A stretch of DNA of 64,000 bases from Desulfatibacillum sp. (GTDB lineage: Bacteria; Desulfobacterota; Desulfobacteria; Desulfobacterales; SpSt-501). Position 1 is the first letter of the stretch. The number at the start of each line of letters is the position of its first letter. The position numbers and the translations under genes were made by a program. The DNA is taken from assembly GCA_020725555.1 (NCBI GenBank), contig DYEU01000032.1, positions 305,656-369,655 on the forward strand. Direction: 5' to 3'. Below the pieces are notes generated by a model. That model had not been told where the DNA came from and made no database searches. It saw only the letters and a list, made by a program, of their open reading frames with translations. Below are positions 3,685 to 63,450 of the stretch, piece by piece.

Positions 3685-4465
3685 ACCGCGCCCCGACCTC
3701 GAAGTCGTCGTCCTCGGCTCGGGCACCTGCGTCCCCAGCCGCGAACGGAGCTCCTGCGCGCTCCTTGTGCGCACGGCGGGCCGGAGCTTCCTGCTCGACG
3801 CGGGCCCGGGCACCCTGCGGCGCCTGGCCGAGGCCGAGGTCGCGATCGACGACCTCACCGCCGTTCTGGTCAGCCACCTGCACCCGGACCACACGGCGGA
3901 CCTCGTGCCGCTCTTGTTCGCCACCAAGTACGACCCCGAGGGACGCCGCACCGACCCCCTCCTCCTCGTGGGGGGCCGCGGCTTCGCCGATTTCTACGCC
4001 CGGCTGAAGGGGGCCTACGGGGAGTGGATCGATCCCGGCCGCGGGCGGCTCGAAATCCGCGAGGTCGCGGTGGAGGGCCCCGACGCCCTGCGGCTTGGGG
4101 GCGTCGAGGTGCGCACGGCGCCGACCGTGCACACCCCGCAGAGCGTCGCCTTCCGCCTGGAGAGCCCGGCGGGACACTCGCTCGTCTACTCGGGGGACAC
4201 GGACTGGGCCGAGCCGCTCGTGCAGCTTGCCGAGGGGACCGACCTTCTGGTATGTGAGGCGGCTTTCCCGGAAGGCAGGAAGGTGCAGGGCCACCTGACC
4301 CCGGCCCTGGCCGGGCGGATCGCGGCCCGGGCGGGCGTGCGGCGCCTGATGCTCACCCATTTCTACCCCGCCTGCGAGGCGGCCGACATCGCCGCCCAGT
4401 GCCGGCGGAGTTGGGCGGGCCCGCTGCTGCTGGCCCGCGATCTGCTGCGGGTTTCCCTGCCATGA
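3677..4465 (+). CDS. Metallo-beta-lactamase-fold hydrolase (RNase Z-like)
   Basis: 262-residue metallohydrolase. The zinc motif HLHPDH lies at 67-72, followed by a later metal-binding aspartate in YSGDTD (about 172-177) and a C-terminal histidine in LTHFYP. The layout, with VHTPQSVAFRLE before the GDTD strand, resembles the RNase Z/ElaC branch. The long flexible arm of true tRNase Z is not obvious, so a generic MBL hydrolase is the safer call. It overlaps the DHH gene upstream and its stop overlaps an in-frame ATG of the next gene (4462), marking a tight operon. Confidence 0.8.
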   Translation: MAEPRPDLEVVVLGSGTCVPSRERSSCALLVRTAGRSFLLDAGPGTLRRLAEAEVAIDDLTAVLVSHLHPDHTADLVPLLFATKYDPEGRRTDPLLLVGGRGFADFYARLKGAYGEWIDPGRGRLEIREVAVEGPDALRLGGVEVRTAPTVHTPQSVAFRLESPAGHSLVYSGDTDWAEPLVQLAEGTDLLVCEAAFPEGRKVQGHLTPALAGRIAARAGVRRLMLTHFYPACEAADIAAQCRRSWAGPLLLARDLLRVSLP

Positions 4466-4494
4466 GCCCGGCGCCGGCCTGCGGAGAACGGCGG

Positions 4495-5160
4495 ATGCGT
4501 TATTACCCGATCCAGCTCGACGTGCAGGGCCGGCGCTGCCTGGTGGTCGGCGGGGGGGCGGTCGGCACGCGCAAGGCCGAGACCCTCGCGGCCTGCGGCG
4601 CCGAGGTCGTCGTCGTCAGCCCCGAGGCCACGGCGGAGCTATCCGCCTGGGCCGAGGCCGGGCGGATCCGCTGGCACCGGCGCGCCTATGCCCCTTCCGA
4701 CCTCGAGGGGGTGTTTCTCGCGGTCGGGGCGACCGACGACGAGGGGCTCAACCGCCGGCTGAGCGGCGACGCCCGCCGCCGCGGCGTCCTCTGCAACATC
4801 GCCGACCGGCCGGAGCTGTGCGATTTCATCCTCCCCGCCCTGGTGCAGCGGGGGGATCTCGTGATCACCGTCTCCACCTCGGGGAAAAGCCCGGCGCTCG
4901 CCAAGCGGCTGCGCCGCGAGCTGGAGCGGCGCTACGGCGAGGAGTACGCCCTGTTGCTGCGCCTCATGGGCGCCGTGCGCCGCCGCCTGCTCGCTGAGCG
5001 GCACGCGCCGGAGGAACACCGCACGCTCTTCGAAGCCCTCCTCGAGGGCGGCCTGCTCGAGCGCCTGCGCGAGGGCGATCTCCCCGGCGCCGACCGCGTC
5101 CTCGAGGCCGTTCTCGGCCCCGGGTGGAAGGCGGAGGCGCTGCTCGCCGAGACCGACTGA
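4495..5160 (+). CDS. Precorrin-2 dehydrogenase / sirohydrochlorin ferrochelatase
   Basis: About 221 residues, the Met8/SirC/CysG-N type that oxidises precorrin-2 to sirohydrochlorin with NAD and may insert iron to make siroheme. The Rossmann motif GGGAVGTRKAE lies at 19-29, and the dimerisation/active-site segment STSGKSPALAKRLR follows at about 123-136. There is no C-terminal uroporphyrinogen methyltransferase domain, so it is not a full CysG. I chose ATG 4495 because GGAG sits 8 bases upstream; ATG 4462, overlapping the previous stop, would add 11 residues. Followed by CcsA/HemX and hemA, it forms a tetrapyrrole block. Confidence 0.9.
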   Translation: MRYYPIQLDVQGRRCLVVGGGAVGTRKAETLAACGAEVVVVSPEATAELSAWAEAGRIRWHRRAYAPSDLEGVFLAVGATDDEGLNRRLSGDARRRGVLCNIADRPELCDFILPALVQRGDLVITVSTSGKSPALAKRLRRELERRYGEEYALLLRLMGAVRRRLLAERHAPEEHRTLFEALLEGGLLERLREGDLPGADRVLEAVLGPGWKAEALLAETD

Positions 5161-5182
5161 GGCCCACGCGACGGACGATCCC

Positions 5183-6001
5183 ATGGAAGAGATCCTCATC
5201 GCCGCCATTTTCCTCTACCTCCTCAGCGCCGCCGCCTACCTCGTCTACTTTCTGCTGCAGCGCCCCCTGCTGCCGCGGGCGGGCCTGGCGGCCCTGATCG
5301 GCGCCTTTCTCCTGCACACGGCGTATCTCGCCGCAGCCGGCATCCGGCTGGGCCATTTCCCGGCCGCCAACCTGCGCGAGACGCTCTTCTGCGCCGCCTG
5401 GGCGGTCGCGGGCGCCTTTCTCTACGTCCAGGGACGCTACGGCGTGAAGGTCCTGGGCCTGTACGCCGCCCCCCTCGTCGCCGGGGTGCTGATCGCGGGG
5501 GCCTTGCTGCCCGGCCCGCCGGCGCAGACGACGGCGCTCTTCCAGAGCCTCTGGCTCATGGCCCATGTGACCGCCGTCTTTCTCGGCGAGGCCGCCTTCG
5601 CCCTGGCCTGCGGCGTGGGCGTCCTCTACCTCCTGCAGGAAAAGGCCATCAAAACCAAGAAAACGCGCTACGTCTTCCGCCGTCTGCCCTCGCTCGAGCT
5701 GCTGGACAACGCCGGCTACGGCTGCATCGTGGTCGGCTTCGCCCTCATGACCCTGGGGTTGATCACGGGGCTGGTCTATGCCCGGGCGGTCTGGGGGCGC
5801 TTCTGGACCTGGGACCCCAAGGAGGTCTGGTCCGGGGTCTGCTGGCTCTACTACGCGGCGCTGCTCCACGGCCGGCTGCGGTCCGGCTGGCGGGGGAGGC
5901 GTTCGGCCTGGTTTGCGATCGCGGGGTTCGGGATCCTCCTCTTCACCTTTCTCGGCGTCAACCTTCTCTGGGAGGGGCATCATCGGGCGTTCACCCGCTG
6001 A
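5183..6001 (+). CDS. CcsA/HemX-family membrane protein
   Basis: 272-residue integral membrane protein with about eight hydrophobic segments and the tryptophan-rich WWD-type signature FWTWDPKEVWS near residues 210-220, which in CcsA/CcmC proteins presents heme for cytochrome c maturation. Histidines at the ends of helices (LLHTAYL, MAHVTAV, EGHHRAF) could bind heme. It lies between the siroheme gene and hemA, the position called hemX in several bacteria. HemX proteins are thought to influence HemA abundance, and CcsA proteins assemble c-type cytochromes; sequence alone does not choose between these roles. No ResB partner lies beside it. Confidence 0.85.
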   Translation: MEEILIAAIFLYLLSAAAYLVYFLLQRPLLPRAGLAALIGAFLLHTAYLAAAGIRLGHFPAANLRETLFCAAWAVAGAFLYVQGRYGVKVLGLYAAPLVAGVLIAGALLPGPPAQTTALFQSLWLMAHVTAVFLGEAAFALACGVGVLYLLQEKAIKTKKTRYVFRRLPSLELLDNAGYGCIVVGFALMTLGLITGLVYARAVWGRFWTWDPKEVWSGVCWLYYAALLHGRLRSGWRGRRSAWFAIAGFGILLFTFLGVNLLWEGHHRAFTR

Positions 6002-6042
6002 CCCCGGCCGGCCGGGAGGGTCCCCTGCATGCGGCTGACTAC

Positions 6043-7308
6043 ATGGTCGACATCGTCCTGATCGGCATCAACCACAAGACCGCGCCGGTCGAGCTGCGGG
6101 AGTGCCTGGCGTTCGCCGCCGAGGAGGCGGAGGAGGCCCTCCGGCGGCTGGTCGGGGACCCGGCCGTGCGCGAAGCGCTGCTCTACTCCACCTGCAACCG
6201 GGTGGAACTCCTCATGGCGGCCGAGAACCGGGACGGCGCCCTCGCCGCGGGCCGGGGTCTGCTCGCCGCGCGCAACCGGCTATCCCCGGAGCTCCTCGAG
6301 GGCAGCCTCTACATCCATGAAAACGACGACGCCGTGCGGCATCTCTTCCGCGTCGCCTCGAGCCTGGACTCGCTGGTCGTGGGGGAGCCCCAGATCCTGG
6401 GGCAGATCAAGGAGGCCTACCGGCAGGCCCTGCGCGCGAAGAGCTCCGGGGTCATCCTCAACCGCCTGATGCACCGGGCCTTCTTCGTCGCCAAGCGCGT
6501 GCGCACCGAGACCGGCATCGGCGGGCATGCGGTCTCGGTGAGCTATGCCGCGGTCGAGCTGGGCCGCAAGATCTTCGGCGACCTGGCGGGCAAGAGGGTG
6601 CTGCTGATCGGCGCCGGCGAAATGGCCGAGCTCGCCGTCGAGCACCTGCTGCGCCAGAAGGTGGCCGAGATCCTCGTCGCCAACCGCACCTACGAACACG
6701 GCCTCGAGCTGGCGCGCCGGTTCCAGGGCCGCGCCCTGCGCTTCGAGGACCTTCCCGCGGCGCTCACCGAGGCCGACATCATCCTGAGCTCCACGGGCGC
6801 CCCGGGGTTCATCCTCACCCGCGACCAGATCCGCCCCGTTCTGCGCCACCGCCGCAACCGGCCGCTCTTCTTCATCGACATCGCCGTGCCGCGCGACATC
6901 GACCCGGAAATCAACCGCCTCGAGAACGCCTACGTCTACGACATCGACGACCTCCAGGGGGTCGTGGAGGAAAACCGGCAGGACCGGATGAAGGAGGCGG
7001 TCAAGGGCGAGCGCCTCATCGACGAGGCCGTGGTCCGCTTCCGGCAATGGCGCGAGGGGCTGGAGGTCGTGCCCACGATCGTCGCGCTCCACCGCAAGCT
7101 GGAAGCGATCGGCGAGCAGGAGCTCCGGCGCACCGCCCAGTCCCGCCGCTGGGCGGAGGGGGACGTCGAGGCCGCCCGCCGCATGCTGGCCGCGTTCATC
7201 AACAAGGTCCTGCATGAACCGACCGTATTCCTCAAGCGGCAAGGGCACCGCACCGACCAGACCGTCAGCGTGGATTTCGTCCGCAAACTCTTTCACCTCG
7301 ATGAATGA
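6043..7308 (+). CDS. hemA: Glutamyl-tRNA reductase
   Basis: 421 residues. It catalyses NADPH-dependent reduction of glutamyl-tRNA(Glu) to glutamate-1-semialdehyde, the first committed step of C5 tetrapyrrole synthesis. The N-terminal catalytic domain carries STCNRVEL with nucleophile Cys51. A Rossmann domain with IGAGEMAEL follows near 188-196, and a C-terminal helical dimerisation domain ends the protein. Length and order are normal. It sits 41 bases after the CcsA/HemX gene and 35 before fabD, on the same strand. Confidence 0.97.
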   Translation: MVDIVLIGINHKTAPVELRECLAFAAEEAEEALRRLVGDPAVREALLYSTCNRVELLMAAENRDGALAAGRGLLAARNRLSPELLEGSLYIHENDDAVRHLFRVASSLDSLVVGEPQILGQIKEAYRQALRAKSSGVILNRLMHRAFFVAKRVRTETGIGGHAVSVSYAAVELGRKIFGDLAGKRVLLIGAGEMAELAVEHLLRQKVAEILVANRTYEHGLELARRFQGRALRFEDLPAALTEADIILSSTGAPGFILTRDQIRPVLRHRRNRPLFFIDIAVPRDIDPEINRLENAYVYDIDDLQGVVEENRQDRMKEAVKGERLIDEAVVRFRQWREGLEVVPTIVALHRKLEAIGEQELRRTAQSRRWAEGDVEAARRMLAAFINKVLHEPTVFLKRQGHRTDQTVSVDFVRKLFHLDE

Positions 7309-14223: not shown

Positions 14224-15384
14224 ATGGTCTCCCGGCGCGCCCAGGAGTTGAGCTCCTTCATCGTGATGGACGTCCTCGAGCGGGCCAAGGACATGGAGCG
14301 CCAGGGGATCCGCGTCATCCACCTGGAGGTGGGGGAGCCCGATTTCGACGCCCCCGACTGCGTCAAGGCCGCCGCCTGCCGCGCCCTCGAGGAGGGCCAC
14401 ACCCATTACACCCACAGCCTGGGGAACCACGATCTGCGCGAGGCGATCGCCCGGCACCACCGGGCCCTCTACGGGACGGAGGTCGATCCCGGGCAGATCC
14501 TCGTCACCTCCGGGTCCTCGCCCGCCATCCTGCTTGTGTTTTCGGCGCTGCTGGACCCCGGCGACGAGGTGATCCTCTCCGACCCCCATTACGCCTGCTA
14601 CCCCAACTTCATCCGCTTCGTGCAGGGGGTGCCGGTGCGGGTCCCCGTGTACGAGGAGGAGGGCTTCCAGTTCCGGCCGGAGGAAATCCGGGCGCGGCTC
14701 ACCCCCCGGACGCGGGCGATCTTCATCAACTCGCCGTCGAACCCGACGGGGACCCTGCTTTCCGCCGACTGCCTGCAGGAGCTCGCGGCGATCGCCGAGG
14801 GGCCGGGGGGCCCCTGGATCGTCTCCGACGAAATCTACCACGGCCTCGTCTACGAGGGCAAAGAGCACAGCATCCTCGAATACACCCGCCGCGCCTTCGT
14901 CCTGAACGGCTTCTCCAAGCTCTACGCCATGACGGGCCTGAGGCTGGGCTACGTCATCGCGCCGCCGGAGCTCGTGCGGCCGATGCAGAAGCTGCAGCAG
15001 AACTTCTTCATCTCCGCCAACGCGATGGTTCAGCGGGCGGCGATCGCCGCGCTGGAGTGCGCGGGCGAGGATGTGCGCCGCATGAAGGCCGTCTACGACG
15101 AGCGCCGCCGCTTCATGATCCGCCGCCTGCGGGAGATCGGCCTGGGGATCGCCGTCGAGCCGACCGGCGCCTTCTACGTCTTCGCCAACGCCCGCCGGTT
15201 CCAGAAGGACTCCTATCGCCTGGCCTTCGACATCCTCGAGCACGCCCACGTCGGGGTCGCGCCGGGGATCGATTTCGGCGAGCAGGGCGAGGGGTACCTG
15301 CGCTTCTCCTACGCCACCTCCATGGAACACATCGCCGAGGCCATGGATCGGCTGGAGGCCTACTTCCGCAACCGCTTTTCCTGA
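14224..15384 (+). CDS. Fold-type I PLP aminotransferase
   Basis: 386-residue aminotransferase of the aspartate aminotransferase class I/II group. Features are the N-terminal VGEPDFDAP, substrate-binding SPSNPTGT near 167-174, VSDEIYHGL near 201-209 and the PLP lysine in GFSKLYAMTG (about residue 232), followed by LRLGY. ATG 14224 lies 2 bases after the hisG stop. Its position in a his run makes a histidinol-phosphate aminotransferase role conceivable, but the sequence looks closer to broad aspartate/aromatic aminotransferases, so I leave specificity open. Confidence 0.85.
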   Translation: MVSRRAQELSSFIVMDVLERAKDMERQGIRVIHLEVGEPDFDAPDCVKAAACRALEEGHTHYTHSLGNHDLREAIARHHRALYGTEVDPGQILVTSGSSPAILLVFSALLDPGDEVILSDPHYACYPNFIRFVQGVPVRVPVYEEEGFQFRPEEIRARLTPRTRAIFINSPSNPTGTLLSADCLQELAAIAEGPGGPWIVSDEIYHGLVYEGKEHSILEYTRRAFVLNGFSKLYAMTGLRLGYVIAPPELVRPMQKLQQNFFISANAMVQRAAIAALECAGEDVRRMKAVYDERRRFMIRRLREIGLGIAVEPTGAFYVFANARRFQKDSYRLAFDILEHAHVGVAPGIDFGEQGEGYLRFSYATSMEHIAEAMDRLEAYFRNRFS

Positions 15385-15438
15385 AGCGCCCGGCGGCAAG
15401 GCCCCAAGACCGACCCGCCGGGATCCGGGGGCCAGAGC

Positions 15439-16038
15439 GTGCTCATCACCTCCGCGGAGTTCGTGACCAGCGCCGCCCGGATCGAACAGTGCCCGCCGCC
15501 GGGGCGGCCGGAGTTCGCCTTCGCCGGCCGCTCGAACGTCGGCAAATCGAGCCTCCTCAACACGCTGATGAACCGCAGGCGGCTTGCGCTGACGAGCGCA
15601 ACCCCCGGCAAGACCCGGCTGATCAACTTTTTCCGGGTCAACCGGCGCTATCTCCTCGTGGACCTGCCCGGCTACGGCTACGCCCGGGTCGCCGAACGGG
15701 AGCGCCGCTCGTGGCGCCCGATGGTCGAGGGCTACCTCGCCGGCCGCGAAACCCTCAAGGCCGTCGGCCTGCTGATCGACATCCGGCGGGACCCCGGGCC
15801 GGAGGAGGAGCTCCTGCTGCGCTGGGTCGCAAGCCGGGGCGTCCCGGCCTTCGTGGTGGCGACCAAGGCGGACAAGGTCTCCCGCAACGCCCAGGAAACG
15901 CGCCGCTCGCGGATCGCGGCGGGCCTGGAGCTCGACCCGGAAGAGGTGCTCCTGTTTTCCGCGAAAACCCGGCTGGGGCGCAAGGAGCTCTGGCATGTGC
16001 TCGCCGGCTACGCCGCGCCCGAGGACGAACGGGCCTGA
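15439..16038 (+). CDS. engB: Ribosome-assembly GTPase EngB (YihA/YsxC)
   Basis: 199-residue TRAFAC GTPase required for large-subunit maturation. G1 is GRSNVGKSS (30-38), the switch region includes TPGKTRLINFF, G3 is DLPGYG, G4 is TKAD near 145 and G5 FSAKT near 173. Start is GTG 15439; no ATG precedes the conserved core. Only 16 bases separate it from the likely era start, so the two ribosome GTPases are probably co-expressed. Confidence 0.93.
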   Translation: MLITSAEFVTSAARIEQCPPPGRPEFAFAGRSNVGKSSLLNTLMNRRRLALTSATPGKTRLINFFRVNRRYLLVDLPGYGYARVAERERRSWRPMVEGYLAGRETLKAVGLLIDIRRDPGPEEELLLRWVASRGVPAFVVATKADKVSRNAQETRRSRIAAGLELDPEEVLLFSAKTRLGRKELWHVLAGYAAPEDERA

Positions 16039-50756: not shown

Positions 50757-53240
<2,484 letters not shown>

Positions 53241-54359
53241 TCAGATCCTCATGGGCATAAGCACGCTCAAGTAACGCCGGTCCTTTTCCCCGGTGAGAAT
53301 GCAGGGGCGATCTTCTCCGGTCAGATGCAAAACGACGGCCTCATCCTCCATGACGTTCAAACTGTCGATGAAGAACCGGGGATTGAACATGGTGGTCATT
53401 TTCTTTCCCCGATACTGGATGTCCATGACCTCCTTGGACTCCCCGATATCGGGATTTGTCGAGGAGACGGTCAAGGTGTCGTCTTCGAACTGGAAGATCA
53501 CCCCCTTGTATTCCTCGGAGCCGAGAATCGACATCCGCCGCAGCATCGAAAGGAAGGTGAGGCGGTCCAGTTTGATCTGCTGTCCATCGGAAATTTTAAT
53601 GATATCATGGTATTTTGGGAACTCTCCCTCCAAGAGGCGCACGATCAGCCGCTCATCCTCGCGATGCAGGAGGAGATGGTTGTCCTTGAAGGAGAGCTCC
53701 GCCACAGCCTCGCTTTCCAGGAATTTCCCGAGTTCGGCGAGACTTTTCTTGGGCACGAGGATCCCGCGCTCGATGGCCGCCTCCTCGGCGGGCGCGATCG
53801 GCAGATCGACCTTGGACAGGCGGCTGCCGTCGGTGGAGACCATGCGGAAGAGGATCTCCCCGCCGTCCTCCAGCTTCTCCAGATACACCCCCAAAATGTG
53901 CGGCCGGCGATCATCTGTGGCGGCCGGGATGATGACGGTTTTTTGAATCATGGAAGCCAGTTGTCTTGATGGCAGGTGAAGGGCGACCTCGGCCTTAATC
54001 TTAGGGATGGTCGGAAAATCCTCGGGCTTCATGCCGACGATATGGTATTCGATCTGATCCTTCTTGATTTCGATCCACTGGTTGTCGAGCTGCTGCAGGA
54101 TGATGTCCTCACTTGGAAAATCCTTTATGATTTCAAATAATTTCCTTGAATTCAACACCGTCTTGCCCTCTTTCTCGACCACCGCCGGGTAGCTGCCGAC
54201 GAAACCGGTTTCGAGATCGGTCGCCGAGACGATAAGCCCCTGGGTTTCGGCGCTCAGGAGAACGTGGGTCGTGATCGCGAGATTGGATTTTCTCCCGGTG
54301 ATCCCCTGGATCTTTGCAAGAACGGGAAGCAAATGCTTTTTCTGAACCGTAACCTTCAT
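53241..54359 (-). CDS. dnaN: DNA polymerase III sliding clamp
   Basis: 372 residues of three repeated clamp domains. N-terminus MKVTVQKKHLLPVLAKIQG and C-terminus ending KDRRYLSVLMPMRI are typical. ATG 54359 has AGGGGAG about 7 bases upstream; an earlier in-frame start at 54377 has no such site. It lies directly beside an AT-rich segment with a DnaA-box-like site; dnaA is not present in the window. Confidence 0.96.
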   Translation of the reverse strand: MKVTVQKKHLLPVLAKIQGITGRKSNLAITTHVLLSAETQGLIVSATDLETGFVGSYPAVVEKEGKTVLNSRKLFEIIKDFPSEDIILQQLDNQWIEIKKDQIEYHIVGMKPEDFPTIPKIKAEVALHLPSRQLASMIQKTVIIPAATDDRRPHILGVYLEKLEDGGEILFRMVSTDGSRLSKVDLPIAPAEEAAIERGILVPKKSLAELGKFLESEAVAELSFKDNHLLLHREDERLIVRLLEGEFPKYHDIIKISDGQQIKLDRLTFLSMLRRMSILGSEEYKGVIFQFEDDTLTVSSTNPDIGESKEVMDIQYRGKKMTTMFNPRFFIDSLNVMEDEAVVLHLTGEDRPCILTGEKDRRYLSVLMPMRI

Positions 54360-54401
54360 CTTGATTCTCCCCTGCAAAAGAAAGAAAAGAAGAAGATCGT
54401 C

Positions 54402-54528: not shown

Positions 54529-55074
54529 TCATAAGCCGGGTGTTTTCGACTCCTCTTGCGACAGCCAGCGGCGCAGATATGCGAGATGGGTCCCTTTCCA
54601 CTTGGGCGAAAGCCTCTCGGAAAGAAAGAGGGAAAACAATTTATCTATGAATTCAAACAACTTAATTAGTTGATCCATGCGGTCAAGAAGCCTTGTTTCC
54701 GCTTCCTCCTCCAAAGAAAAGGACGAAGCGGGCTCCATTTTCAGGCCGCAGAGGTTCAGATTTTCCGCCTTGAGCGCGAAACGATACTCCTGTTTCTCCG
54801 TTCGCAGCGACAGGCCGAGTTCACTGACCCAGGCCCCTCTTCCCAGGGCGATCCGGGCCTCCTCGAGGCCGGGGTCTTCGCCGCGGATCGTGATCTTCTC
54901 TTTCGATCCTTCGCGGTTCTCGATCACCATCCGCTCGGCGAGCGCCAGCCCCTTCACCTCCGGGTCGAGGGCGCACAGCGATTCGTTTCGGGTTTCGACA
55001 CCATGCCACAGCCAGGTGAGAAACTCGTCTCCCAAAAAACGAAACCGCTGATAGGCGACGGCGATGTCGAGCAT
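54529..55074 (-). CDS. RdgC C-terminal-half-like protein
   Basis: 181 residues. The segment FLTWLWHG through VETRNESLCALDPEVKG, the charged middle with KEKITIRGEDPGLEEARIALGRG and RTEKQEYRFALKAENLNLCGLKME resemble the order of the C-terminal half of RdgC, a ring-shaped DNA-binding protein that limits RecA. ATG 55074 has CGGGGG upstream but with long spacing. The gene upstream covers the N-terminal half, 21 bases away. A diverged independent family is the alternative. Confidence 0.6.
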   Translation of the reverse strand: MLDIAVAYQRFRFLGDEFLTWLWHGVETRNESLCALDPEVKGLALAERMVIENREGSKEKITIRGEDPGLEEARIALGRGAWVSELGLSLRTEKQEYRFALKAENLNLCGLKMEPASSFSLEEEAETRLLDRMDQLIKLFEFIDKLFSLFLSERLSPKWKGTHLAYLRRWLSQEESKTPGL

Positions 55075-55095: not shown

Positions 55096-55710
55096 TCAGG
55101 CCTTCAGGCGACTGGGCGTCAGCGCCGCCAACAGGTCTCTTTCCTTCTCCTTCAGACCGCAGAGCAACTCTGCGGCCGTGTAAGGGAAGATCCGGATCAG
55201 GGATAGGGAAAAGGAGCGCCGAAAGAGTTTTTCCAACTCCTCGTTCGCCGCCTTCTGCACGGAGAAAAAGAAAAGGCGGTGGTTCTCGTAATCCCAGACC
55301 AGGTCGTGAACATGGGGAACGGGCGGAATGCGTGCGAGAAGCGTCCGGCTGACCTTTTCCCGGAGGGCCTCTTTCTCGTCGCGGGAGAGGAAGGAACGCC
55401 GGGTTTCGCTCAGCCGACGTTTGCTCGAGCGCGAGAACTCTTTGCGCAAGAGATTCGCCGGCAGAGGCTTGCGGTCGATGCGCAGCGCGAAGACGAAAAA
55501 GGTCCCCCAGACGAAGGAATCGCCCTCAAACGCCGGTTGATAAGGATCGGTAAACGAGGTCCAGCCGGAGGCGGAATCCGCGGGATCGTCCTCGATCTCG
55601 CGGATCATGTTGCGGGTGAGCCCCTCGCGGACGAAATCTGTGGGGTTCCCCGCGATCCGCCCTTCCACGCGGTAGCGTACGCAAGAGATGCTCGAAGAAA
55701 AAAAACCCAT
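55096..55710 (-). CDS. RdgC N-terminal-half-like protein
   Basis: 204 residues from ATG 55710. The run WGTFFVFALRIDRKPLPANLL, then SFLSRDEKEALREKVSRTLL and the closing LFRRSFSLSLIRIFPY follow the residue order of the first half of RdgC (start, basic helices, LxxRxxP, VPL-like end). It stops cleanly with TGA before the downstream C-terminal-like ORF, so RdgC appears as two genes here. An alternative start at TTG 55767 adds 19 residues. Confidence 0.62.
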   Translation of the reverse strand: MGFFSSSISCVRYRVEGRIAGNPTDFVREGLTRNMIREIEDDPADSASGWTSFTDPYQPAFEGDSFVWGTFFVFALRIDRKPLPANLLRKEFSRSSKRRLSETRRSFLSRDEKEALREKVSRTLLARIPPVPHVHDLVWDYENHRLFFFSVQKAANEELEKLFRRSFSLSLIRIFPYTAAELLCGLKEKERDLLAALTPSRLKA

Positions 55711-55790
55711 GTTCCCGGCCTGTTGCCGACGGACGGCGGAGAGGATTGCCGATCGCGATTTTTTCAATTACATAGCGAATTTAGGCGCTC

Positions 55791-58700
55791 ATGACAAGCC
55801 CTCTTTCAGCAGGCGAGTATCTCGCCGACCTTCATGTCCATTCGCGCTTCTCGCGGGCGACCTCGAGCGCGCTGACGCTTGAGGCCCTCCACACGGCGGC
55901 GCAGCTCAAGGGGATCCGTGTTGTCGCCACCGGGGATGCGACCCATCCGGCCTGGCTGGCCGAAATCGAAGAGCGGCTCTTGCCCGCGGAGCCGGGTCTC
56001 TGGAGGTTAGACCCCCGGCGGTCCTCCGGCGACGAGCATGCCGTTCCCGCCGCCTGCAGGGCCGAGGTGCGCTTCATTCTCGCCGCCGAAATCTCACTGG
56101 TCTACAAAAAGGAGGGGAAAACCCGCAAAAACCACAACCTGGTCTATTTCCCGGATCTTTCGTCGATCAAGGCCTTCAGCCGCAGGCTCGAGAAGATCGG
56201 CAACATCCACGCCGACGGCAGGCCCATCCTCGGCCTGGACGCGCGCGATCTCCTGGCCTTGACGCTCGATACCTGCCCGGAGGCCTTCCTCGTGCCGGCG
56301 CACATCTGGACCCCCTGGTTTTCGGTTCTGGGCGCCCAGTCCGGCTTCGACTCCCTGGAGGAGTGTTTCGGCGATCTTGCAGGAGAGATTTTCGCCGTGG
56401 AAACCGGTCTCTCTTCGGACCCGCCGATGAACCGCCGCGTCTCCTTTCTCGATCGCGTGCGCCTGATTTCCAATTCCGACGCCCACTCCGCGGAAAACCT
56501 GGGCCGGGAAGCCAACCGCTTCGCCGGCGAGCTCTCATTCCACGGCCTGCGCGACGCCCTGCGCGGCAAGGGGAACACGGCCTTTCTGGGAACCCTCGAG
56601 TTTTATCCCGAAGAAGGGAAATATCATTATGACGGCCATCGCCGCTGCGGCGTGCGCCTCGAACCGCGCGAAACGCTGCGCCACGGCGGACGCTGCCCGC
56701 GATGCGGCAAGATGCTGACCGTCGGGGTGCTCAACCGGGTGGAAGCGCTCGCCGACCGGCCGGAAGTCGACCCGCATGCTTTCGGGCAGGGATTCCAGTA
56801 TCTGATCCCGCTGGCCGACATCTTGAGCGAGATTCTCCAGACCGGAAAGGCAAGCCGCAGGGTCGCCGATTCGCGGCGCCGAATCCTGGAAACGCTGGGC
56901 GCGGAGCTCGTCGTCCTGTGCGAGCGCCCGGCTTCCGAGCTCCGCGCTTTGGGGATTCCGCTTCTGGACGAGGCGGTCCTGCGCATGCGACGCGGCGAGA
57001 TCGAGATTCTCCCCGGATGCGACGGCGAATACGGGAAAATCCGCATCTTTCGCGAACAGGAACGCGAAGCCCTCTGCGGCCAGAAAGCGCTCTTTCCCGC
57101 AGGCGGCGAAGCCGCGCGGCGAAGGCGCTCGCAGCCCCCAGCCTCTTCAGGGGGCCTTTGCACGAAGAAAGCCCCGCTTGAGGCCCAGCCGCTGCACCCT
57201 CCGGACCCGACCGACGAGCAGCGCGCCATCCTCGATTCCCGCGCACGACGCCTGCTGATCACCGCCGGGCCCGGAAGCGGCAAAACCCATGTCCTCACCC
57301 TGCGCATCGCCCGGCGGATCGAGGAAGGTGTGGACGCCGGCAGAATCCTCGCCGTCACCTTCACCCAGAAAGCGGCTGCGGAGATGAGAAGCCGGCTTGC
57401 GGCGCTGCTGGGCGAACGGGGGCCGCTCCCCTGTGTCGCCACCTTCCACGGCTTTTGCCTCATGCTGCTGCGGGAGGAGGATGCCTCCAGCCGCCTGCAC
57501 CTTCTTCACGAGCTCGACCAGGAAGCCCTCGTCGCGCGCGCGATCCGCCTTGCGGAGGGCCGGGTCGGGCCGAGTGCGCTTCGGCCGCGCCTGGTGCGCT
57601 CCTGGATTTGCGCCGCCAAGGAGGCGTTTCTCGCCCCGGAGGAGATCTTCCCCTCGTTCCACCCCGAGGTCGCGGACCTGGAGCGCTTCCGCAGGGTCTA
57701 CGCGCACTACCAGCGGCTCCTGGAAGGCCAGGGCCTTCTTGACCTGGAGGACATCCTGTTCCGGGTGGGACGACGCCTCGAGCGCGACGCCGCCTGGCGG
57801 GCTTCCTGCCGCCGCCGTTTCCAGGAAATCTTCGTAGACGAATACCAGGACCTAAACGCGGCCCAATACCGCATCCTGCGCGGCCTCGCCCCGGCCGGAG
57901 CGAAAGAACCGGCGCTCACCGTGATCGGCGACCCCGACCAGGCGATCTACGGGTTCCGCGGCTCAACCCCGGTTTACTTTCGCAATTTTCTTCAGGAAGA
58001 GCCCGAGGCGGAGCACCGCACGCTCGAGCGCAATTTCCGCTCCCACCCCGAGATCGTCGCCGCCGCACGCCGCTTGGTCGGCGGCGATCCCGCCGCTGAC
58101 GGCGAAGCTCGAAAGACCCCGGGCGCCGAAGCGCCCCTGCGGATCCGGGAGTTCCGGGATGAAAGCGAGGAGGCGCGGGCGATCGCCCGCGAAATCCGGC
58201 AAGCCATCGGCGCCACCGGGTTCCATGAGGCGGGGGCGGAACTTCTCCCGCAGCCGGAGAGGGCACCCCGCGGCTTTCGCGATTTCGCCGTGCTCACGCG
58301 CACCTTCGAGCTCGGGGAGCCGATCGCGCGCGAGTTCGCGCGGCAAGGGATCCCCGTGCAGCGCGTCGACCGCCGGGAGGCGGTTCTCGGGGAGGCGGCC
58401 CGCAGGCTGCTCTCCTTCCTGCGCGTGGGCCTGGGCCTGGGCGGGCTCGAGGATTTCGGCGCCGCCGCCGCTTTCCTTTCCCCACGGTTGCCGGAGAGCC
58501 GACTCGCCGCATTCATCGACTGGGGCTACCGCAAGAACCTGCGCCTGGCGGAGGCCTTGCAGGCCGCCGGGCGCTTTCCCGTCACCGGGCTCCGTCCGGC
58601 CGACCAGCGCCTTCTGCTCCAAGGGATCCAGGCGCTCCTGGAGCTGCGGCGCGAGGCGGCCGGGAAATCCCCCCGCGAGGCGCTCCGCCTTCTCCTGCAC

Positions 58701-59198
58701 CATGAAGGGGTGCGCCGTGCAGGCGCAGAGGCCGCGGTGGCCGCCGCGGCCGAGCGTTTCGAGGAGCTGCTTGCCGGCGTCGCCCCCTGCTCCTCGGCGG
58801 AGGGAATCCTCGAGACGCTGGTTCTCGCCGCGGACGGCGACCTCTACCGGGAGGCGGCGCAGAAGGTGGCCCTGATGACCCTTCATGCCTCCAAGGGCCT
58901 CGAGTTTCCGGTCGTCTTCATCGCCGCGTGCGAGGAAGGGGTTCTTCCCTGGGCCGACGCCGCCTGCGAGGAACGGTGGCAGGAGGAGTTGCGCCTGCTC
59001 TACGTGGGCCTCACGCGGGCGAAAGAGCAGGTGGTCCTGTCCTGGGCGAAACGGCGCCTGATCCGGGGAAAACGCCTCGAACGGCGGCCCTCCCCGTTTC
59101 TCGCGCGGCTCGGGGACGGCTTGATCGAGCGCGCCTCCCCCTCTGCGCCTCCCCGCCGGCCGACATCCCGCCAAAGGAGCCTTTTCGGAGACCCCTGA
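55791..59198 (+). CDS. Endonuclease Q-like PHP nuclease fused to UvrD-type helicase
   Basis: 1135 residues. N-terminal (about 10-330): PHP metal motifs DLHVHS (13-18), TGDATH (47-52), AAE (98-100), PAHIWTPW (169-176) and SNSDAHS (227-233), then a zinc ribbon with C286, C302 and C305, as in endonuclease Q, which cuts 5' of deaminated bases and AP sites. C-terminal (about 470-1110): superfamily 1 helicase with Walker A AGPGSGKT (492-499), DEYQD near 683, QAIYGFRGS near 717, LHASKGLEF near 1030 and VGLTRAK. A low-complexity linker joins them. Divergent from the RdgC-like genes with an 80-base gap. The fusion predicts strand opening coupled to incision at damaged bases. Confidence 0.83.
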   Translation: MTSPLSAGEYLADLHVHSRFSRATSSALTLEALHTAAQLKGIRVVATGDATHPAWLAEIEERLLPAEPGLWRLDPRRSSGDEHAVPAACRAEVRFILAAEISLVYKKEGKTRKNHNLVYFPDLSSIKAFSRRLEKIGNIHADGRPILGLDARDLLALTLDTCPEAFLVPAHIWTPWFSVLGAQSGFDSLEECFGDLAGEIFAVETGLSSDPPMNRRVSFLDRVRLISNSDAHSAENLGREANRFAGELSFHGLRDALRGKGNTAFLGTLEFYPEEGKYHYDGHRRCGVRLEPRETLRHGGRCPRCGKMLTVGVLNRVEALADRPEVDPHAFGQGFQYLIPLADILSEILQTGKASRRVADSRRRILETLGAELVVLCERPASELRALGIPLLDEAVLRMRRGEIEILPGCDGEYGKIRIFREQEREALCGQKALFPAGGEAARRRRSQPPASSGGLCTKKAPLEAQPLHPPDPTDEQRAILDSRARRLLITAGPGSGKTHVLTLRIARRIEEGVDAGRILAVTFTQKAAAEMRSRLAALLGERGPLPCVATFHGFCLMLLREEDASSRLHLLHELDQEALVARAIRLAEGRVGPSALRPRLVRSWICAAKEAFLAPEEIFPSFHPEVADLERFRRVYAHYQRLLEGQGLLDLEDILFRVGRRLERDAAWRASCRRRFQEIFVDEYQDLNAAQYRILRGLAPAGAKEPALTVIGDPDQAIYGFRGSTPVYFRNFLQEEPEAEHRTLERNFRSHPEIVAAARRLVGGDPAADGEARKTPGAEAPLRIREFRDESEEARAIAREIRQAIGATGFHEAGAELLPQPERAPRGFRDFAVLTRTFELGEPIAREFARQGIPVQRVDRREAVLGEAARRLLSFLRVGLGLGGLEDFGAAAAFLSPRLPESRLAAFIDWGYRKNLRLAEALQAAGRFPVTGLRPADQRLLLQGIQALLELRREAAGKSPREALRLLLHHEGVRRAGAEAAVAAAAERFEELLAGVAPCSSAEGILETLVLAADGDLYREAAQKVALMTLHASKGLEFPVVFIAACEEGVLPWADAACEERWQEELRLLYVGLTRAKEQVVLSWAKRRLIRGKRLERRPSPFLARLGDGLIERASPSAPPRRPTSRQRSLFGDP

Positions 59199-59298: not shown

Positions 59299-59874
59299 AT
59301 GAAGGCGATCCTCGTTGCAGGCGCGCTTTGTTTTCTTTTCCTGCTCCCCCTTAGGCCGGCCGGGGCGGACATCTATCGCTACATCGATGAAAACGGGGTC
59401 ATGCACTTCACCAACGCCCCAACCTCGCCCAAGTTCAAGCTCTTCATGCGCGAGCGCCGGCAGTTCCTCGACCGGTTGGAGGCCCATCACTACGATCCCA
59501 TCATCCAGGAGGCTTCGCGCAAGTACGGGCTCGAGGCGGCGCTCATCAAGGCCGTGATCAAGGCCGAGTCCGACTTCGACCCCAAGGCCGTTTCGCACAA
59601 AGGGGCCCGCGGGCTGATGCAGATCATGCCCATGAACTTCCGCCTCCTCAACGTCGAAAACCCCTTCGACCCCCGGCAGAACATCGAGGGCGGCGCCCGC
59701 TACCTGCGCGAGATGCTCGACCGCTACGGCGGGAACCTCGAGCTGGCGCTCGCGGCCTACAACGCCGGCCCGGGCGCGGTCGACCGCTATGCCGGCATCC
59801 CCCCTTATCCCGAGACCACCGAGTACATCGCCCGGGTGAAGAAATACCTCGACGGCTACGCGCGCAACTCCTGA
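59299..59874 (+). CDS. DUF4124-SLT lytic transglycosylase
   Basis: 191 residues. Signal peptide (about 4-23), a DUF4124 segment IYRYIDENGVMHFTNAPT (25-42), and a soluble lytic transglycosylase domain with catalytic Glu in KAESDFDP (E about 90), GLMQIMP and AYNAGPGAVDRY. It cleaves peptidoglycan glycans in the periplasm, forming anhydro-sugars. Its last 19 bases overlap the end of the convergent glgB. Confidence 0.9.
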   Translation: MKAILVAGALCFLFLLPLRPAGADIYRYIDENGVMHFTNAPTSPKFKLFMRERRQFLDRLEAHHYDPIIQEASRKYGLEAALIKAVIKAESDFDPKAVSHKGARGLMQIMPMNFRLLNVENPFDPRQNIEGGARYLREMLDRYGGNLELALAAYNAGPGAVDRYAGIPPYPETTEYIARVKKYLDGYARNS

Positions 59875-62006
59875 TTGCCCGGCGATCCGCCTTGCGGCTC
59901 GAGAACGATCGCCGTCCGCGTGGGGAGATAGAGACTCAGCACGTCGCCGGCGAGCGTGTGGTGCTCCTCGCCCGGAATCAGCCGGCCGTGGCCCCCGTAG
60001 TCCCGGGCGTCGCTGTCCAGGACCAGCCGATAGCTCCCGGGCGGCGCCGGGATGCGGTAGTGGACGTGGGAACGGGTGGGGTGAAAGTTGAAGACGAAGA
60101 CCCACCCGGCGCGGGTGAAGGCGAGCACCTTGTCGTCCTCGTGGACATGGAGCGGCCGCGCGGCCGGATCGGCGAAGAGCCGCGCCGCGACGGCGAGCGC
60201 GATCATGTCCCGGTCGAAGCGCGCGAGCAGCCCGTATTTGAGGGAAGGGTCGTCCACGAGGCTCCATTGCCGGCGCGCGTAACGGAAGGACCAGCCGTTG
60301 CCCTCCCGCGGGAAGTCGATCCACTCGGGGTGGCCGAACTCGTTGCCCATGAAGTTCAGGTAGCCGCTGCCAGCGGTTGCGAGCGTCACGAGGCGGATCA
60401 TCTTGTGGAGGGCGACGGCGCGGTCGACGCGCAGGTGGTCGTCGTCGACGCGCATGTGCCAGTAGAGGTCGGCGCCCGCCAGCCGGAACAAGAGCGATTG
60501 GTCGCCCACGAGGGCCTGGTCGTGGGACTCGGCATAGCTGATCGTTTTCTCCTCCCGCCGGCGGTTGTTCAGCTCGAACCACAAATGGCCCATCGGCCAC
60601 AGCTCGTCCGGGACCTCCTTGGCCAGGCGGATCCAGGTGTCCGCGATCCCCATCGCGAAGCGGTAGTCGAAGCCGATGCCGCCCTCGGCTTGCGGTGCGG
60701 CCAGGCCCGGCATGCCGCTCACGTCCTCGGCGATGGTGACCGCGGCCGGCTTCAGGGTGTGGATCAGGCGGTTGGCGAGCGCGAGGTAGCCGAGCGCGTC
60801 CTCGTCCACGGTTTCGTTGAAGTAGTCCTCGTAGGAAAGGAAGGGCCGGTTCAGGCCGTGGTCGAGGTAGAGCATGCTGGTGACGCCGTCGAAGCGGAAG
60901 CCGTCCACGCGGTATTCGTCCAGCCAGAAGCGGCAGTTGGAGAGGAGGAAATGGAGCACTTCCGGTTTGCCGTAATCGAAGCACCGGGAGTCCCAGGCCG
61001 GGTGCCGGCCCCGCGGCACATCGTGAAAATACTGGTAGAGCGTCCCGTCGAAGCGGCTGAGTCCCTCGACCTCGTTCGAGGCCGCATGGGAGTGCACGAG
61101 ATCGATCACGACGGCGATGCCCATGCCGTGGGCGGCGTCGATGAGCGCCTTGAGGTCCTCGGGTTCGCCGAAACGCGAGCTCGCCGCAAAGAAGCTCGTC
61201 ACCTGGTAGCCGAAGGAAGCGTAGTAGGGGTGCTCCTGGACGGCCATGAGCTGAAGGGTGTTGTAGCCGGCGTTGCGGACCCGCGGCAGGACGTTCCGGG
61301 TGAATTCGGCCCAGGTGCCGACCTTTTCCTCCTCCTGGGCCATCCCCGGGTGCACCTCGTAGACGAGGGGGGGGACCTGCGGGCGGCGCCAGCGGAGGTG
61401 GCGCCAGCGGTAGGGCGACCGGGGCCGCCAGACCTGGGCGTTGAAGATCAGGGTCCCGGGGTCCTGGACCACGCGGCGGCACCAGGCCGGGATGCGGTCG
61501 CCCGAGCCTCCCGGCCAGTAGATCTTGAGGCGGTAGAGGTCCCCGTGGCGCAGCCGGTTTCCGGGGAGCCGGATCTCCCAGACGCCCCGCGGCTCGATCC
61601 GCCGCAGCTCGAACTCGGGGAGCTCCTTCCAGCCGCTGAAATCGCCGACGAGGAAAACGGCCTCGGCGTTCGGCGCCCACTCCCGGAAGACCCAGCGCGG
61701 TCCGCGGCGGTGGAGGCCGAAGTATTCATGGCCGGAGGCGAAATCCGCAAGCGGGATGCGCCCCCCGGTCAGGCGCTTTTCGGTCGCCTCGATCTTCTGC
61801 AGCCGGCGCCGCAGGATCCCCTCGTAGCGGGAAAGGTCCGGGTCGATCGCCAGCAGGCGCCGGAGGCGCTCCTGCGGCCCCGGGAAGCGGTCCGGGGGCG
61901 TCGCGCGCCGTTTCCGGGCGCCGGCGCCGCCGGGCCTATTCGACGATGAGCGGCCGCTTGAGCATGGTTTCGTAGAGCTCGATGTACTGTCGCGCCGTGC
62001 GCTCAT
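59856..62006 (-). CDS. glgB: 1,4-alpha-glucan branching enzyme (GH13_8 type)
   Basis: 716 residues. It introduces alpha-1,6 branches in glycogen. A CBM48 domain (about 85-190) is followed by the GH13 barrel with region I DLVHSH, region II GFRFDGVTSM (Asp nucleophile), region III TIAEDVSGMPG (Glu) and region IV ESHDQALVGD. These fit the eukaryote-like GH13_8 subfamily rather than E. coli-type GlgB. The only in-frame start found is ATG 62006, 71 bases inside the end of glgA and without a clear SD, so the first 30 or so residues are uncertain. Confidence 0.9.
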   Translation of the reverse strand: MSARRDSTSSSTKPCSSGRSSSNRPGGAGARKRRATPPDRFPGPQERLRRLLAIDPDLSRYEGILRRRLQKIEATEKRLTGGRIPLADFASGHEYFGLHRRGPRWVFREWAPNAEAVFLVGDFSGWKELPEFELRRIEPRGVWEIRLPGNRLRHGDLYRLKIYWPGGSGDRIPAWCRRVVQDPGTLIFNAQVWRPRSPYRWRHLRWRRPQVPPLVYEVHPGMAQEEEKVGTWAEFTRNVLPRVRNAGYNTLQLMAVQEHPYYASFGYQVTSFFAASSRFGEPEDLKALIDAAHGMGIAVVIDLVHSHAASNEVEGLSRFDGTLYQYFHDVPRGRHPAWDSRCFDYGKPEVLHFLLSNCRFWLDEYRVDGFRFDGVTSMLYLDHGLNRPFLSYEDYFNETVDEDALGYLALANRLIHTLKPAAVTIAEDVSGMPGLAAPQAEGGIGFDYRFAMGIADTWIRLAKEVPDELWPMGHLWFELNNRRREEKTISYAESHDQALVGDQSLLFRLAGADLYWHMRVDDDHLRVDRAVALHKMIRLVTLATAGSGYLNFMGNEFGHPEWIDFPREGNGWSFRYARRQWSLVDDPSLKYGLLARFDRDMIALAVAARLFADPAARPLHVHEDDKVLAFTRAGWVFVFNFHPTRSHVHYRIPAPPGSYRLVLDSDARDYGGHGRLIPGEEHHTLAGDVLSLYLPTRTAIVLEPQGGSPGNQELRA

Positions 62007-63450
62007 AGGTGAAATCCCGTGCGCTCTCCGTCATGATCCGCCGGATCTGCCGTTCGCGCACCGCCTCCGGCAGGGCGTGGAACGCCATCGCCTGCTCGAT
62101 CGCCCAGAACAGGCCGTTGGCGTCGTAGACCTGGAAGAGAAAGCCGTTTCCCGTGTCGCCGGCGACGTCGAGGTGGCGGATCGTGTCGTGAATGCCGCCG
62201 GTGTCGTGGGCCACGGGCAGGGAGCCGTAGATCGGGGCGATCATCTGCGGCAGCCCGCAGGGCTCGAAGCGCGAGGGCATGAGGATGAAATCCGAGGCGC
62301 CGTAGGCCAGGTGCTCCATCGCCTCGCTGAAGTCGCAGATCGCCACCCGCCGCTGGAATTGGTGGAAGTTGACGATGTCCTGGAAGACCCGCTGGTATTC
62401 GCCGTTGGCGACGAAGACGACCTGGAGGTTTCGTTCCCACCAGGTGGAGAGCACCCGGTAGAAGATGTCGGAGAGGAGCGCGCAGCCCTTCTGCACGGGA
62501 TCGAGCCGCGAGGGCCAGAAGAAGAGCGGGGCGTTCACGTCCTCGATCAACCCCAGGGTGCGCTGCAGGAAGCGTTTGTTTTCGCGCTTGGCGGCGGCAT
62601 GGTCTTCGGGACCGTAGCGGACCTTCAGGTCGGAGTCGGTCCGGGGGTTGAAGGACGGGTCCGGGGCGTTGAGGATGCCGAAGCCGCAGCCGGCGTGGTA
62701 CTTGTTGGCGAGCTCGCGCCGGATCTGCTCCTCGACGAAATCGTGGCGGCCCTCGACCACCTCGCGCAGGAAGGTGGGGCTCACCGTGTTCACGAAGTGG
62801 GCGGCGAAGATGCCGCTCGCGAGGAGATCGACGGGGTTGCGCTCGCGCGCCGATTCGTAGTCGTCGGCCCAGTGCATGAAGTAGAGGTGCTGCCAGAAGC
62901 TCGCGGCGTCGATGCCGCGGTCCTCGATGGCGGCGAGGGTGGTCTTCACCGTGTGGATGTTGTGGATGGTGAAGAGGCAGGGGATGCGCAGCCGGCGGGC
63001 GACCGCGGGCAACAGTCCCGTCATCCAGTCGTTGCAGTGGATGAGGTCGGGCTGCACCCGCGGCAGGATGTTGTTGATCACCTCGCGCTGGAAGGCGAGC
63101 GCGAGCTTGATGTTTTCGTCGCCCGAGCTCGAGTAGACGCGGTTGATGTAGAAGAAGGCACGGTCCTCGGCGAGGTGGACCCGGTCGTCGGGCATCTTGC
63201 GCTGGATGCTCGAAATCTCCTCGCGCAGAAACGGCACCAGCCGGTCGCTGAAAATCGAGCGGTAGTCGGGCAGGGCGACGTGGACGTCGGCCCCCTGGTC
63301 GAAGAGCGCGCTGACCAGCGCGGCCGAGACATCGGCGAGCCCCCCGGCCTTGGCCGTAAAGAAGGTGGCAAGGCTCCCCATGCGGTCGGGGAGGTAGGTC
63401 ACCTCCGGGGTGACGATCAGGACACGGGGGTTGCGGCGCTTGTCGTCCAT
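61936..63450 (-). CDS. glgA: Glycogen synthase (GT5)
   Basis: 504 residues. GT5 transferase that extends alpha-1,4 glucan from a nucleotide sugar. The donor-site motif AKAGGLADV lies at 34-42; HCNDWMTGLLP (about 138-148) and the C-terminal SRFEPCGLPQM (about 391-401, with Glu) are characteristic. ATG 63450 follows GGAGGAGG, a strong SD. It sits 22 bases after glgP in a glgP-glgA-glgB operon. Confidence 0.94.
   Translation of the reverse strand: MDDKRRNPRVLIVTPEVTYLPDRMGSLATFFTAKAGGLADVSAALVSALFDQGADVHVALPDYRSIFSDRLVPFLREEISSIQRKMPDDRVHLAEDRAFFYINRVYSSSGDENIKLALAFQREVINNILPRVQPDLIHCNDWMTGLLPAVARRLRIPCLFTIHNIHTVKTTLAAIEDRGIDAASFWQHLYFMHWADDYESARERNPVDLLASGIFAAHFVNTVSPTFLREVVEGRHDFVEEQIRRELANKYHAGCGFGILNAPDPSFNPRTDSDLKVRYGPEDHAAAKRENKRFLQRTLGLIEDVNAPLFFWPSRLDPVQKGCALLSDIFYRVLSTWWERNLQVVFVANGEYQRVFQDIVNFHQFQRRVAICDFSEAMEHLAYGASDFILMPSRFEPCGLPQMIAPIYGSLPVAHDTGGIHDTIRHLDVAGDTGNGFLFQVYDANGLFWAIEQAMAFHALPEAVRERQIRRIMTESARDFTYERTARQYIELYETMLKRPLIVE

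Follow-up and report, generated by a model that had tools for sequence, protein, structure and literature searches.

The DNA analysed here, a 64,000-nucleotide stretch of contig DYEU01000032.1 from Desulfatibacillum sp. (the window), carries a gene whose product combines a complete endonuclease Q (EndoQ)-type nuclease (residues 12-422), a mostly disordered linker and a complete UvrD-type helicase of superfamily 1A (SF1A; residues 470-1118) (Table 1). A sequence-only reading of the window had proposed a single 1135-residue gene joining a PHP/EndoQ-type nuclease to an intact SF1A helicase, and both proposals held: the frame is open from its ATG with no internal stop, and the two halves were recognized from alignment to structures in the PDB, retained active-site residues and fold matches. 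The same reading had confined the EndoQ part to residues 1-330. Its EndoQ homology was confirmed, but the extent was not, as residues 12-422, including the C-terminal domain, aligned end to end with PfuEndoQ (5zb8, phmmer against PDB, E = 6.9e-52), and the EndoQ part is therefore complete and ~90 residues longer than proposed.

Table 1 Features of the fusion gene and its neighbours, in window coordinates
Feature	Position	Strand	Description
EndoQ-UvrD fusion gene	55791..59198	+	1135 aa, ATG start, no internal stops
EndoQ-type nuclease	55824..57056	+	residues 12-422: PHP domain, zinc ribbon, C-terminal domain
Zinc ribbon	56637..56705	+	H283-x2-C286 ... C302-x2-C305; His replaces first Cys of PfuEndoQ
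Linker	57057..57197	+	residues 423-469; 431-469 predicted disordered (pLDDT <50)
Internal clamp-motif-like QKALF	57081..57095	+	residues 431-435, directly after folded EndoQ part
UvrD/PcrA-type SF1A helicase	57198..59144	+	residues 470-1118; Pfam and structure matches, 2is1 Z 38.4
Helicase motif I	57267..57287	+	GPGSGKT, K498
Helicase motif II	57837..57851	+	DEYQD
Helicase motif III	57927..57962	+	GDPDQAIYGFRG
Helicase motif V	58878..58907	+	TLHASKGLEF
Helicase motif VI	58995..59024	+	LLYVGLTRAK
C-terminal clamp motif QRSLF	59172..59186	+	residues 1128-1132, disordered tail (pLDDT <50)
RdgC-like protein	55096..55767	-	divergent neighbour; RdgC E 2.8e-6, 27.3 bits, cut-off 25
181-aa partner of RdgC-like gene	54529..55074	-	no Pfam family; at -2 in 13/72 loci
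dnaN, beta clamp	53241..54377	-	neighbour; putative docking partner by motif only
gyrB	50757..53222	-	neighbour

In the nuclease half, TIGR00375, an NCBIfam hypothetical equivalog, matched residues 12-417 (E = 2.1e-45), with 155.7 bits for the fusion, under the curated cut-off of 326.6, which was exceeded in none of the 197 genomes of our phylum sample. With 58 aligned fusions as input, AlphaFold2 gave a model with a mean predicted local distance difference test score (pLDDT) of 85.4, in which the EndoQ half matched 5zb8 over 386 residues (Z 44.9, root-mean-square deviation 2.5; Foldseek 2.2e-29). In 96 aligned, distinct fusions spanning over ten phyla, equivalents of all seven metal-site and catalytic residues examined (H8, H10, E76, H84, H139, D193 and H195 of PfuEndoQ; H15, H17, E100, H115, H171, D230 and H232 in the window) were kept in 94-96 of 96 sequences, with H139 invariant (96/96), as were base-gate residues G169 and S171 (96/96 each; G206 and S208 in the window). 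Substitutions E76A, H84A and H139A abolish PfuEndoQ activity, and H139, G169 and S171 obstruct T and A (review, PMC8307549). The first zinc-ribbon position is His in 94 and Cys in two of the 96 fusions, the other three Cys being invariant (96/96); one His and three Cys could possibly still serve as the zinc ligand set. This His (residue 283 in the window) offers a simple marker of the fusion clade.

For the helicase half, Pfam UvrD-helicase (PF00580; E = 1.9e-60, 205.3 bits against a gathering score of 23) and UvrD_C (E = 1.6e-30) both matched, PcrA and UvrD structures in the PDB aligned with residues 476-1124, and the modelled half matched DNA-bound UvrD (2is1) over 621 residues, with Foldseek in agreement. 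The window copy has intact motifs I, II, III, V and VI, all of them strongly conserved across the 96 fusions. The protein nevertheless differs from the known UvrD, PcrA and Rep helicases, falling far under their equivalog cut-offs (PcrA 280.5 vs 911.2, UvrD 260.8 vs 1144.45, Rep 245.5 vs 951.45 bits), branching as a separate clade in a quick tree (see below) and ending its tail in a clamp-type motif; a C-terminal Tudor domain is known in UvrD (PMC7585439). Two stretches of the model, residues 431-469 and 1121-1135, had pLDDT <50 and are presumably disordered.

We ruled out a frameshift or chimera artefact, because relatives sharing 36-63% identity also have an uninterrupted frame and because nuclease and helicase occur together repeatedly, whether fused, next to each other or unlinked. 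One of these relatives, a same-genus genome, has an open 1136-aa frame 63% identical to the fusion, which excludes an assembly error. Among 103 collected loci, 99 contained an open reading frame (ORF) with both EndoQ and helicase, 97 of them at least 1000 aa long, and the remaining four comprised three other helicases of the Desulfatibacillum genome (L002-L004) and one split pair (L044).

The most telling shared feature, absent from the sequence-only reading, lies outside the folded parts. In the alignment of 58 fusions, Q1128 is invariant and L1131 and F1132 nearly so amid an otherwise weakly conserved C-terminus, and these residues match, in sequence and in placement, the bacterial beta-clamp-binding consensus QLxLF (PMC4549789). 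Of the 105 complete distinct fusions left after removal of 16 ORFs (seven cut by a contig or locus end, nine identical), 98 had a loose pattern, Q..[LIM][FL], within their last 14 residues and 89 a strict one, Q[LMI].L[FL], as opposed to means of 2.3 and 0.22 when the last 40 residues were permuted. The window copy, QRSLF, meets the looser pattern only. Six of the seven fusions lacking the pattern end in QLSF (L039), QLSFF (L060 and L077), QLKFF (L180), SATLF (L182) or HLSLF (L186), and the seventh, L011, has a frame that breaks near its end, where the next ORF, in another frame, ends in QLQLF. Among 620 ORFs adjoining fusions (greedy ORF calls, part of them cut by locus ends), four matched the loose and none the strict pattern. 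Likewise, the motif was found in none of 11 UvrD-type helicases of related genomes (one, L199, without a visible C-terminus), nor in L002, the Desulfatibacillum genome's own UvrD-like protein.

A second QxxLF-type motif follows the EndoQ part in 74 of the 103 fusions in which its anchor is present (5.2 when shuffled), and a script count gave both motifs in 69 of 105. Known beta-clamp-binding proteins share the QLxLF-type motif in a disordered C-terminal tail; what sets most fusions apart is that they have two motifs, one per enzymatic half, known here from sequence. Both halves carry tags of the clamp-docking type, with DnaN as putative partner. A comparable arrangement exists in archaea, where EndoQ binds PCNA through a C-terminal PCNA-interacting protein (PIP) box and PCNA binding stimulates cutting (PMC4858679); that box also lies beyond the folded C-terminal part, although a residue-by-residue alignment with QxxLF is impossible. 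A clamp motif in bacterial EndoQ is not new, since the same paper noted the consensus in bacterial homologues, its consulted text making no mention of a helicase fusion. In our data, 24 of 45 unfused EndoQs from the fusion-type clade had the looser pattern within their last 40 residues. None of the 12 rows assigned to the Bacillota stand-alone type (termed B. subtilis-like on the basis of higher TIGR00375 scores) had it; one of these rows, 202 aa of L147, is a wrongly sorted fragment.

These proteins are widespread. A scan of one genome per species across 84,980 species returned at least 587 relatives, and the best 80, which we used, came, judging by record titles, from Desulfobacterota, Myxococcota, Gemmatimonadota, KSB1, Latescibacterota, Chloroflexota, Spirochaetota, Bacillota, Elusimicrobiota, Aerophobetes, Cloacimonadota, SAR324 and one 'Rhodospirillales' genome, with Nitrospirota represented by a split pair. 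The carriers of homologues include Moorella stamsii (L072) and Geobacter argillaceus (L058). Within the window's order, by our reading of the search, an EndoQ-bearing match was present in 85 of 96 relatives, though not in every case fused. A Bacillota sample of 249 genomes gave 128 matches, 29 with frames of at least 1000 aa, candidate fusions judged by length. One contig of that sample (L168) carries a fused EndoQ-UvrD gene (3570-7202, +) and a stand-alone EndoQ (14250-15512, -) ~7 kb apart, and the two EndoQs are neighbours in the EndoQ tree.

EndoQ and helicase stand as adjacent separate genes in five loci (L044, L130, L134, L143 and L174). All five helicases have the motif at their end, one with two extra residues after it, and four of the five EndoQs carry it as well, terminally in L044, L130 and L134 and ~27 residues before the end in L174; the L143 EndoQ lacks it. 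A search with a split-type helicase gave 37 matches in 26 genomes with unfused EndoQ, and 28 of the 30 loci examined encode helicases without the C-terminal motif. The remaining two helicases, from G209 and G243, do not adjoin EndoQ and end in or near the motif.

To place these helicases, we built a tree of 64 sequences (26 fusions, five split helicases, 28 of the 30 helicases from unfused-EndoQ genomes, four of 11 controls and the genome's own UvrD-like protein), leaving out two long AddA/AdnB-like rows. All 33 partnered helicases and that of G152 fell on one side (SH-like approximate likelihood ratio test, SH-aLRT, 100) and 30 UvrD/PcrA-type proteins, including the genome's own, on the other; in this quick sequence tree, built without bootstrap and with composition warnings, EndoQ-partnered helicases form one clade apart from ordinary UvrD and PcrA. 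The G152 protein (L217), from a genome whose EndoQ is stand-alone, is a free clamp-clade helicase with a degenerate tail, KKMRLFNI, and a stop in the matched stretch. A similarly quick EndoQ tree of 111 rows (SH-aLRT only, with long-branch warnings for L145, L177 and PFU) separated the fusions and their unfused kin (103 rows) from PfuEndoQ and seven Bacillota stand-alone rows (SH-aLRT 99). A single fusion followed by strict inheritance was not supported: the fused label has to change 18 times on this tree, and starred branches force nine or more of those changes. By the same sequences, joining of the helicase, its loss, or both occurred repeatedly, with a direction that the EndoQ tree does not reveal.

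The fusion can be set against several known systems. With PfuEndoQ, TkoEndoQ, MacEndoQ and B. pumilus EndoQ it shares the whole fold, catalytic residues, G/S gate, a putative zinc ribbon and a clamp-type motif past the C-terminal domain; it differs in its attached helicase, the His in place of the first zinc Cys, QxxLF for the archaeal PIP box, its position in a separate distant clade and its TIGR00375 score. With UvrD, PcrA and Rep it shares the SF1A motifs and the long alignment to UvrD-DNA. A route proposed in archaea, with EndoQ and EndoV cutting first and a helicase activity then clearing the segment (PMC4357722, Fig. 10 legend), resembles what we propose below in pairing EndoQ incision with helicase removal of the damaged segment; here, however, the helicase is part of the same protein, and a search of the Desulfatibacillum genome yielded no EndoV. 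With EndoV in only 19 of 96 relatives, we discarded dual incision by EndoQ and EndoV as a general scheme. We found no description of an EndoQ-UvrD fusion or of a double clamp motif in the open-access literature (text only, figures being outside the scope); bacterial EndoQs are drawn in Fig. 9A of PMC4357722, whose legend names no helicase. EndoQ, UvrD and the clamp motif in bacterial EndoQ are known, and it is their combination that looks undescribed.

We hold, with slightly better than even confidence, that the fusion is an enzyme tethered to the clamp that incises DNA at deaminated bases and apurinic/apyrimidinic (AP) sites and removes the damaged strand. What the sequence itself supports is a complete set of EndoQ active-site and base-gate residues, a UvrD-type motor, a flexible linker and a clamp-type motif for each half, from which we infer cleavage, unwinding and clamp binding. 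The fusion would dock on the beta clamp (DnaN), and its EndoQ half, acting like archaeal EndoQ, would nick the DNA 5' of a deaminated base or AP site and leave a 3'-OH and a 5'-phosphate, the EndoQ products already described (PMC4357722). The helicase would then load at the nick and travel 3' to 5' along the intact strand, displacing the lesion strand 5' to 3'. This is the polarity of UvrD and PcrA, which translocate 3' to 5'. UvrD takes off the incised strand in two bacterial pathways, mismatch repair and nucleotide excision repair (PMC7690668). Finally, a clamp-bound polymerase, kept near by clamp docking, would refill from the 3'-OH. Such a pathway would be a glycosylase-independent form of excision repair, probably acting as a backup or post-replicative layer because UDG, Nfo and MutL are also encoded by the genome. 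Replacement of UDG by the fusion was ruled out, as UDG occurs in this genome as well as in 90 of 96 relatives. A bolder version, which we consider rather less likely than not, is that EndoQ and a dedicated UvrD-subfamily helicase, fused or paired, form a widespread and so far undescribed bacterial excision-repair machine in which each half has its own clamp peptide, so that one molecule might fill both pockets of one clamp dimer and link incision, strand removal and polymerase hand-over on fresh DNA without a glycosylase. EndoQ has been known mainly as a stand-alone archaeal enzyme, with downstream steps modelled rather than shown, and the fusion turns the proposed 'incise, then helicase removal' route into one testable polypeptide; if correct, bacterial deaminated-base repair would be tied to the replication clamp in many phyla.

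Several observations weigh against the clamp-tethered enzyme as just described. The model leaves the mutual arrangement of the two halves unfixed, given its predicted template-modelling score (pTM) of 0.61, and 29 of 103 fusions have a degenerate internal motif or none. In the phylum sample, TIGR00375 matched in 134 genomes, through frames of at least 850 aa in 54, 380-700 aa in 75 and shorter in five, so that EndoQ does without the motor in some lineages, as the 75 frames of stand-alone size indicate. With UDG and Nfo in the genome, the uracil and AP-site job is already covered, and the fusion is not the sole route for uracil, AP sites or mismatches there. Long branches also separate the fused nuclease from PfuEndoQ and the Bacillota stand-alone type; its preference for deaminated bases and AP sites is accordingly an expectation drawn from conserved pocket residues, and, with a TIGR00375 score under half of the cut-off, the substrate could differ.

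A different target is the core of one alternative, in which the nuclease reads replication errors or some nascent-strand feature and the fusion performs mismatch-repair-like nicking and unwinding on the clamp. Its clade, separate from the characterized EndoQs, would suit this, as would the succession of nick, UvrD strand displacement and resynthesis in bacterial mismatch repair (PMC7690668) and the clamp stimulation of EndoMS/NucS, an archaeal and actinobacterial mismatch nuclease (PMC8228993). We nonetheless consider it decidedly unlikely, as the uracil/hypoxanthine gate (G169/S171) and H139 are invariant in all 96 fusions and the genome has MutL. The order of events could also be reversed, with a clamp-tethered UvrD motor opening or scanning DNA and handing single-stranded DNA or a bubble to EndoQ before incision, while other enzymes remove the strand. 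Uracil and hypoxanthine in single-stranded DNA are cut by EndoQ (PMC11354406), MacEndoQ included (PMC6202378), and a disordered linker without a fixed domain arrangement would permit such a hand-over; yet archaeal EndoQ is active at lesions in double-stranded DNA with no helicase present, relying on a DNA kink and base flipping (PMC8307549), and we regard this order as unlikely, if credible. An anti-phage role, whether in a Gabija-like pairing of nuclease and UvrD or as protection against phages with uracil in their DNA, appears very improbable. PADLOC GajB models do match the helicase (best 2.5e-73), and bacterial EndoQs may take part in antiviral defence (review, PMC8307549), but the GajB matches are confined to the UvrD part, a Pfam scan of 20 ORFs around the fusion revealed no GajA-like (ATPase-TOPRIM) gene, and EndoQ's presence in most relatives within the order is unlike that of a patchy defence gene. 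EndoQ matches were absent from 50,697 phage records, and 72,556 plasmid records contained no fusion, with helicase-only matches in five.

The neighbourhood of the gene had been read as an RdgC-like pair beside dnaN and gyrB, hinting at replication-linked repair. The two replication genes and a weak RdgC match were confirmed, but the second member of the pair has no Pfam match. Among 72 flanked loci, checked against the window proteins, dnaN was a neighbour in 17, gyrB in 16, the RdgC-like gene in 14 and its partner in 13. The association is therefore local and cannot carry a general replication claim; the neighbourhood argument is weaker than stated, and the conserved clamp-binding-type motifs give the replication link better support. 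In L013, L155 and other loci, the RdgC-like protein and a ~175-aa partner are also divergent from the fusion and lead towards dnaN (Pfam E 7e-8 to 6e-6 in the three scanned). Beyond gyrB-dnaN, a 263-aa protein recurs in 11 of the 72 loci, e.g., L005:1023-1814 (-), a copy that matches thymidylate synthase (E = 4e-11). On the other side, an SLT transglycosylase gene (59299-59874, +) adjoins the fusion and is recurrent, at +1 in 13 and +2 in three of the 72 loci, and further downstream lie GlgB-like and starch-synthase-type genes (59856-62006 and 61936-63450, -).

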